DNA of 47,286 bases from the NCBI GenBank assembly GCA_009602725.1, contig WELB01000054.1:652060-699345 (forward strand). Direction: 5' to 3'. The stretch's first letter is position 1. Each line of letters starts with the position of its first letter. A program made the position numbers and the translations under genes. Positions 5,219 through 7,786 of this stretch are shown here, one piece after another. The stretch is from Spirogloea muscicola. Its lineage: Eukaryota > Streptophyta > Zygnematophyceae > Spirogloeales > Spirogloeaceae. The notes beneath the pieces are model-generated. The model was not told the origin of the DNA. It saw nothing but the letters and a program-made list of their open reading frames with translations, and did no database searches.

Positions 5219-7786
5219 CTACTCGGTCAACTCCTCCAACACAATGTACACATCCTGTGTGACTGTTCCCCTTCGTACTGTGACCTGCACGAGAGAAATA
5301 ATTCTGTCATTTGCCTGATGTACTTCAGCTTACTAGGGTTGACCAACCACAAATAACCATGACAACAGTATCTGCATGAAATCAGGGCATCAAAATGTCC
5401 TGTAGACGTCCACAGCAAAGCTGCACTGAGGAAGCAAGAGCAGCTGACAAAAGGCCTCACCCTAACCGTCTCGCCAATTGCGTGCTCCTCAACGGTCGCC
5501 AGGAGGTCCTCCACAGTGGCCAATGCCTGCAGTTGACACAAGCGGACAGAAAGTCAACGCATAGTCTCAAGTCAGTCAGAAATGTAGAGTTCTAGGTATT
5601 AAGGATCAACCACAAGTAGCATGCCAAGCTGCCATACAAGCAACTGCAAATTCAACGAGCAGATTATTTGATACTTGGTTCTAGGATCTGTGGTCATATC
5701 ACCTGGCCATTGATTGCGACGACGACGTCACCCAGCAGTATGCGCCCAGACTGATCCCGACTTGTGGCTGCAAAATTATCAGCAAGTAAGGTAAGACCGT
5801 CTTCATAGCCCATGTCCACTTTCTAGACTACCACATGCATAATTGTTGTATCAGTGTATAGAGGGGCTTAGAAAACAATCTCGGTGTTCAAATATGCAGC
5901 AGTCTCGAGCAGTCACTGCTCTTGCTGCGAAGGGAAATCCCACCTCTGATGCCAGCCTTTTCGGCGGCGCCACCAGTGCGGAGGCCGAGCACCAAGACGC
6001 CCTTGACGCCCAGCTGCCGCGCCTGGCCGTCGCTCGCCGATATGATTCCCAGGCCCGGCCGCACCACGCGTCCGTCGCGAATGAGCTGGCACACCACGCG
6101 GCGTACCGTGTCCACGGGGATGGCAAAGCCCACCTGCCGTGTCCAGCAGATCAAGCTTGGTCATACAGCACAAACATCCACCGGAACTTGGGCAGTAGAG
6201 AAGAAGTAGAAGGCCCCTTTCCTGTAAGGAAATCACTGCTTCGTGTGTGTCCTGCTGCGCCAGGTGCTGCTGACAAACCGATTCCTAGATCCAATATGCT
6301 GACTAATGTTTGCTAACAGCCCAAAGATCAAGCTGAGTACCCACACCCTTGAATGTTGAGCTGATGGCCTTGCTTCTAAGCCTACACAGAGGCTGAATCT
6401 CAGCCGCCATATCAAGGTGGAAAAGTAAGGCACAACCGCAAATCCTCCAACGATGATTCAGCGCAGCGCTACACAGGAGCACACACCTGGGACGACCCAA
6501 CCATGACGGGTGTGAGCTTGGCCGGGGGCGCCTTGATCTTGAGCACCGCCAGGTCCTTCATGGGCGCACTCCCAACGAGCTCGCTGTCCCACGTGGACGC
6601 GTCTGCCAGCGTCACCTTGGCGCGCTCACCGTTCATGACCACGTGGTAGTTGGTGACGACGTGACCGTCCCTGACCATCGCCATGAATGCCCAATGTCAT
6701 GCCCAATGTCCAGGCGACAGAATAAGATAAGGGGTTCAGAGGCAGCAATTATCCGGAAGAGTAACGGATATACAGAAGGTTAATACAGTTGGGTCCATAA
6801 TAACCTCTGCAGAGCAAAGACACTTTGGGCATACTTGTCCCATATGAAGCCGGAGCCGGTGCCGCGGGGAACCTCCACAGGGTTCATGGACATGCCGGAG
6901 CGTGCCATGCGCGAGTTGGTGATGTTGATCACCGCAGGGCTGACCTCCTGGAACCGGCGGATGGTGTTGCGCTCGGCGTCCATCCACCAAGCTGAGAGGT
7001 GCGAAACCCATGCGTTAGCTGACGGCGCTGAACTGGTCTGACATGCAGTCTGCCGTCTCAAAGGGCAGCCCAGTTAGCCACACGCAATCTGCAGCAGGAG
7101 CAAGACTTGGATGTTGAGGCGCAGAAGCAAGGGCCACCAGGGGGCGCACTTTCTGAGGGAAGGCCGGCAAAGGGCTGGAGGAGGTTAGGCGCAGCCAGGT
7201 CGGCCGCGGCGGCGGCAATGGCAGCGTCCGGCCCCTCGGCGCTGTCATCGCCCTCCAGGTACCGCCGCAGGAGGCTCTGCGCGACGGGCGGGATGTAGCG
7301 CTCCGTGTCCCGCAGCCGCTCAGCGAGCTCTCGCTTCTCCAGGCAGTCCCTGCACCCCATAACAGCGGCTGTTAGGCACTCAATCACAGTCACTTAGCAG
7401 CATGATTTACGCTGAGTGACTGTCACAGCAGTGGCTGCTGCAGCGTAGAGGACAAGACTACAAAGGGTATTCCGTCCGGCATATGCATCTGAAAAATCTG
7501 GAATACGACCAGATTCTGCAAGTCCTAATGAATGCCTAAGGATAAGAGCTTAATTCGTGCTGTGGCTCACCGGTAATCAACGCCGCCGAGGTCCAGGACC
7601 TTCTTGATTTGGCTGGCCTTGAGCGCCGCGATGAGGCCCTTGCGCGTGGCGCCGGCAGGGCCGACCGAGCGCCGCGGCGGCTCCTCCCGGGGCTCGTCGC
7701 TCGTCAGGAAGGCCACGGCGCCGGCGCGCCGTCGCGGAGCGACGTGCGGCTCCCTGACGCCGGCGCCGGCAGGGAGCCGCCAACGC
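5219..7786 (-). CDS. Deg/HtrA-type serine protease homologue, 5' incomplete, serine-motif exon not found
   Basis: Exons by frame and splice sites: 7786(?)-7571, 7349-7138, 6991-6835, 6670-6487, 6133-5944, 5767-5703, 5526-5461 and 5284-5219. After a transit-peptide-like basic N-terminus comes a small helical domain (KASQIKKVLDLGGVDYRDC...EKRELAERL), then the protease start (VSPAVINITNSR, PRGTGSGFIWDK). The histidine motif is HVVTNYHVVMNG and the aspartate motif MKDLAVLKI. The C-terminal side gives VGFAIPVDTVRR, then a PDZ domain (GVLVLGLRTGGAAEKAG, LLGDVVVAINGQ) and the end of the protein. The segment expected between 6487 and 6133, with the oxyanion loop and GNSGGP serine motif, is not visible in any frame, yet both flanking exons are phase 0. 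Plastid location is inferred from the N-terminus and family. The family is clear; activity is uncertain. Confidence 0.85.

Follow-up and report, generated by a model that had tools for sequence, protein, structure and literature searches.

Why a Deg/HtrA protease gene should keep its catalytic histidine, its catalytic aspartate and a PDZ domain and yet lack the exon of its catalytic serine is the question raised by a locus of the alga Spirogloea muscicola. The locus lies in a stretch of 47,286 nucleotides, which was analysed as a whole and is here called the window (assembly GCA_009602725.1, contig WELB01000054.1, designated C54, positions 652,060-699,345 of the forward strand). According to the original prediction, the His/Asp exon, the VGFAIPVDTVRR exon and the PDZ domain are intact and the serine exon is absent, which was confirmed by the exon model and by six-frame translation. 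Three options were left for the absence, namely an assembly that dropped the exon, a genuine deletion of it, or a Deg relative without proteolytic activity.

The gene is located on the minus strand of the window, where its observed exons extend from 7786 to 5219. The first of them (7571..7786), recognized by its open frame and the donor GTGAGC, belongs to an N-terminal extension, and a T run with N at 7787-7910 hides the 5' end; the next extension exon (7150..7349, DCLEKRELAERL...) has the same length in a second copy of the gene on contig C41. The protease domain starts in the exon at 6835..6991 (WWMDAERNTIRRFQEVSPAVINIT...GSGFIWD) and continues in the exon at 6487..6670, which encodes DGHVVTNYHVVMNG...MKDLAVLKI...VGSSQ, ends in phase 0 at the donor CAG/GTGTGT and matches Trypsin_2 with 34.6 bits over profile positions 9-74 of 144. 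This exon retains the motifs TNYHVV and MKDLAVLK of a trypsin-like domain, which we take to be the catalytic His and Asp sites of a Deg protease. It is followed by an intron of 353 bp (6134..6486), in phase 0 at both ends, behind which the exon at 5944..6133 begins in phase 0 after the acceptor ACGGCAG, encodes VGFAIPVDTVRR... and contains the end of the protease domain and the start of the PDZ domain. Two further PDZ exons (5703..5767 and 5461..5526) and a last exon with the stop codon (5219..5284, ...VLEELTE) complete the gene. The spliced window product matches Trypsin_2 with 46.6 bits over positions 1-75 of 144, whereas the C41 protein covers 1-144, and its C-terminal PDZ domain scores 38.2 bits with PDZ_2 (cut-off 27). 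Elsewhere in the exons seen, no stops, frameshifts or broken splice sites were observed. The N-terminal extension (7150-7786, ALKASQIKKVLDLGGVDYRDCLEKRELAERL) is found in both copies and is not what usually accompanies a Deg protease; in the C41 copy it scored below the cut-off with RNF34L-like_3rd (19.3 bits against 27) and with ARMET_C (14 bits against 23.5).

Six-frame translation of 6134-6486 yielded no GNSGGP- or AIGNPFGL-like peptide, and an unnoticed exon in another frame or on the other strand of this interval was likewise not seen. A Trypsin_2 search of the alga's own genome (153 Mb, 471 contigs) listed 18 matches, two of which are neighbouring exons on C41, and the DNA at 5944-6669 found genome matches on C54 and C41 only. 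The C41 gene (locus L009, minus strand) has the exon order and phases of the window copy, with seven exons after the first equal in length, and possesses exactly one extra exon of 240 bp or 80 residues (VGQHVLAIGNPFGL...INPGNSGGP...SGASAG), in which AIGNPFGL and NPGNSGGP are both present. The expected loss of 70-80 residues thus corresponds to exactly 80 residues in the C41 copy, the flanking junctions described as phase 0 agree with a C41 exon that is phase 0 at both ends, and the frame, predicted to survive in the mRNA, is open through the new junction 6487^6133 if splicing proceeds as predicted. A second Deg copy with a GNSGGP exon, proposed in the original prediction as a check, is therefore at hand on C41 and provides the intact parent or sister copy by which a pseudogene is recognized. 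A genome-wide search with the 80-residue exon returned seven matches, of which that on C41 was identical (100%) and six others were partial (64-73% identity); none of the seven lay on C54 (the search scored its best candidates, here 17 of 17), and an exon displaced to another part of the contig is unsupported. Consequently, the catalytic Ser in GNSGGP, the criterion for a Deg/HtrA serine protease (S1B), is possessed by the C41 copy and is wanting in the window copy.

Comparison of the window intron with the intron-exon-intron region of C41 disclosed one large gap. A one-gap model sized it at 352-354 bp in its eight top-scoring placements, and the gap in a MAFFT alignment of the same region measured 349 columns by hand count. 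The junction falls at 6407..6414 (minus strand, best-scoring placements), and compared with C41 the window copy has lost ~349-354 bp, which in the best placement comprise the exon, ~89 bp of the preceding intron and 25 bp of the following one. The left flank of the scar is identical to the first C41 intron at 61 of 74 positions (82%) and the right flank to the second at 197 of 260 (76%), and words common to both breakpoints within 40 bases do not exceed 5 bases. As read from these alignments, the scar has the anatomy of a simple deletion with both ends in introns and no long repeat at its junction, and this ~350-bp deletion including the Ser exon supplies the disabling lesion expected of a pseudogene. 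Because C41 and the Deg relatives listed have the exon content, the deletion is derived in the window copy. Of the 15 gaps that separate the window-C41 collinear blocks, 10 differ in length by at least 100 bp, the scar included (one of the ten spans an N run at window 11234; the non-collinear window row 14200-14363 was dropped and rows below 150 bits were left out), and therefore indels of such size are common between the copies. It is proposed that a deletion of ~350 bp, likely of the end-joining type as suggested by the short shared sequence at the breakpoints, removed the single phase-0 exon in which the AIGNPFGL loop and the GNSGGP serine are encoded; in a transcript, should one be made, splicing from the outer donor to the outer acceptor could still give an in-frame His-Asp-(no Ser)-PDZ product. 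This predicted product cannot be a serine protease, and it is probably not folded as one either, because an unbroken stretch of 80 residues, and with it most of the domain's second half, is missing.

The surroundings of the two copies are also related. The window is collinear from 222 to 39057 with C41:254026-299999 (C41 was compared up to 299999) in 16 blocks, which comprise 34,532 window bases and show identities of 73-91%, 12 of the 16 lying at 83-91%. The interval 600-3600 is matched along its length by C41 only, with short matches elsewhere, and the interval 27497-34514 has a third copy on contig C5, which is 87.2% identical to the window, C41 and C5 being 86.2% identical; at the expected place of a third Deg copy on C5, 9875 of 10000 bases read N. 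A different Deg gene, closely similar to plant Deg1, exists in three copies on C15, C349 and C432 (loci L007, L006 and L005) with mutual identities of 84-85%, in keeping with genome triplication, and another Deg gene is present in two copies on C147 and C33 (91%). For PsbO, a single contig gave a match, which makes the copy number uneven. The best PsbO scores belong to five entries at 356-374 bits, presumably land plants, and entries taken to be Chlorella and Chlamydomonas score lower, at ~302 bits and less, so that this PsbO looks streptophyte. Judged by these sequence relationships, the window gene is one of two assembled Deg1-like copies in a genome whose segments are in part duplicated and in part triplicated. 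A scan of the window detected no tRNA genes, and an open reading frame on the plus strand (40070-40813) was noticed by eye in the list of reading frames, with a repeat (NKWTAEEDRRLIYAVRTYGQQKWRKIAVHVAGRS) presumably of the Myb-like family.

A recent whole genome triplication of Spirogloea muscicola is reported in two papers (PMC9065682, PMC7994812), and the streptophyte-like PsbO and the triplicated segments agree with this species. The present locus, with up to three homeologous copies of its segments, resembles homeolog loss after the polyploidy described there, and it differs from a full triplication in that some genes were found only once or twice. A literature search for Spirogloea muscicola together with Deg1 protease found no paper, and one on subgenome assemblies of triploid green algae returned land plant papers only.

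The selective history was assessed on 1077 aligned bases of retained exons, window versus C41, starting from AVAFLTS. These contain 37 synonymous and 7 nonsynonymous changes, corresponding to a dN/dS of 0.061. Where protease and PDZ domains are encoded, 22 synonymous changes over 185 sites stand against 1 nonsynonymous change over 538, and the remaining 6 nonsynonymous changes (5 residues) are located in the N-terminal extension. At the one protease residue that differs, C41 has S whereas the window copy has P, and P is also the residue of 6 of the 9 relatives listed (all 3 plant structures and 3 of 6 loci, the others having K, V and V). A simple Poisson bound, which assumes a simple neutral model and no change on the window branch, limits free drift to at most ~9% of the period that has elapsed since the divergence of the copies, and to 15% with one change allowed. 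Relaxed selection and further stops or frameshifts were thus not encountered in the window copy; since an undecayed frame and a low dN/dS are expected when a loss is recent, this part of the pseudogene definition does not decide the matter. Taken by themselves, the substitutions suggest that either the deletion would be young or constraint would persist on the shortened protein. The exon of the His and Asp residues shows the same degree of conservation as those of the PDZ domain, and this speaks for an enzyme that was selected as a whole until it suffered a recent loss.

Against this background, the window gene is quite probably a recently disabled homeolog of a Deg1-like gene, an ordinary loss of a spare copy with the C41 gene as backup; the intact copy can carry the function and the loss is therefore tolerated. 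Both the recency of the deletion and the compensation by C41 are inferred, and the absence of any sign of decay besides the deletion counts against a recent loss to the extent that a functional product would look alike. The N-filled place of the third copy on C5 and the uneven copy number, with PsbO on a single contig, also weigh against the preferred reading. It is the resemblance to a functional gene that gives room to the possibility that the shortened gene is a working non-proteolytic Deg-like protein, selected for its N-terminal extension and PDZ domain and serving, for example, in substrate binding or in tuning or poisoning Deg1-type oligomers. Such a protein would agree with the frame open through 6487^6133, with the splice sites all kept where seen and with the dN/dS of 0.061 over the retained exons; inactive Deg proteins provide precedents, as in AtDeg7, whose inactive protease domain serves trimerization according to PMC3473262. 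Nevertheless, it is quite unlikely, given that the His/Asp exon, conserved like the PDZ exons, indicates that the entire enzyme was under selection before the loss, and that a contiguous block of 80 residues is gone and Trypsin_2 stops at 75 of 144, in contrast to those inactive Degs in which a residue is altered and the fold is retained. Its elaborated form, in which a single exon deletion after triplication created a constrained serine-less PDZ protein or adaptor that regulates or competes with the intact twin, is very improbable, and nothing in the analysis demands it.

The assembly itself has also to be considered, because it is gapped and draft-like, which counts against the preferred reading. 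Homopolymers directly adjoin N gaps at window 7787-7910 (123 T, then N), at 26761-27265 (73 T, then 432 N) and at C41:210567-218034 (7428 N, then 40 T), and a lysine run stands beside N in the translation of locus L001; these runs look like assembly artefacts, and the first hides the 5' end of the Deg gene. Immediately left of the window, 20 kb of C54 (632060-652059) read N throughout, a gap being one possibility. That the exon exists in the organism and was merely dropped from C54 would be in line with such gaps, single Ns and homopolymers, one of which touches the Deg gene itself, and several copies that are ~86% identical make a local misassembly possible. On the other hand, the scar intron (6134-6486) contains no N, the nearest being at 7910 next to the 123-T run, and a collapsed direct repeat was rejected because the surroundings of the two breakpoints have no word of more than 5 bases in common. 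The separate alignment of the flanks to the two C41 introns, with no such word shared, favours a real deletion over a collapsed repeat. Moreover, the scar intron is 82% and 76% identical to C41, which is comparable to other introns of the gene (67-92% in six introns), and with such divergence it does not represent C41 sequence inserted into C54. An artefact is thus unlikely, and the deletion is inferred to be present in the organism. Among the three options originally left open, real deletion is accordingly the one favoured by the C41 copy and the breakpoints, loss in assembly is disfavoured, and the non-proteolytic relative has no positive support besides the low dN/dS, which recent loss explains as well.

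Compared with solved structures, the C41 protein is closest to Protease Do-like 1 (Deg1, PDB 3qo6; 7.1e-100, 337.5 bits), followed by Do-like 8 (258.9 bits) and Do-like 5 (181.3 bits). Like chloroplast Deg1, it consists of a trypsin-like domain and then one PDZ domain, and unlike Deg1 both copies bear the N-terminal extension with its sub-threshold domain matches, and the 80 residues that hold the catalytic Ser are missing from the window copy. In our reading of the sequences, the Deg genes on C15, C349 and C432 appear nearer to plant Deg1 than the window/C41 gene. According to PMC3473262, inactive Deg proteins are known in Arabidopsis, rice, moss and Chlamydomonas, with Arabidopsis Deg6 truncated and Deg16 devoid of the Asp, which bears out the suggestion that green plants and algae keep inactive Deg-like proteins. 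The window copy resembles these in an incomplete protease domain and predicted inactivity, whereas its loss, in contrast to AtDeg6- and AtDeg16-type Degs as described in that source, is a single exon deletion traced by an intact twin.

Homeolog loss is a known process, as are Deg genes in a truncated or inactive state, and the case is otherwise ordinary. It offers a clean example of how an exon-sized deletion can silence a protease after genome multiplication while the reading frame is left open, by reason of which automatic annotation may still call the window copy a Deg protease. To the known cases the present locus adds an intact twin from its own genome and an origin of an inactive Deg in a single step.
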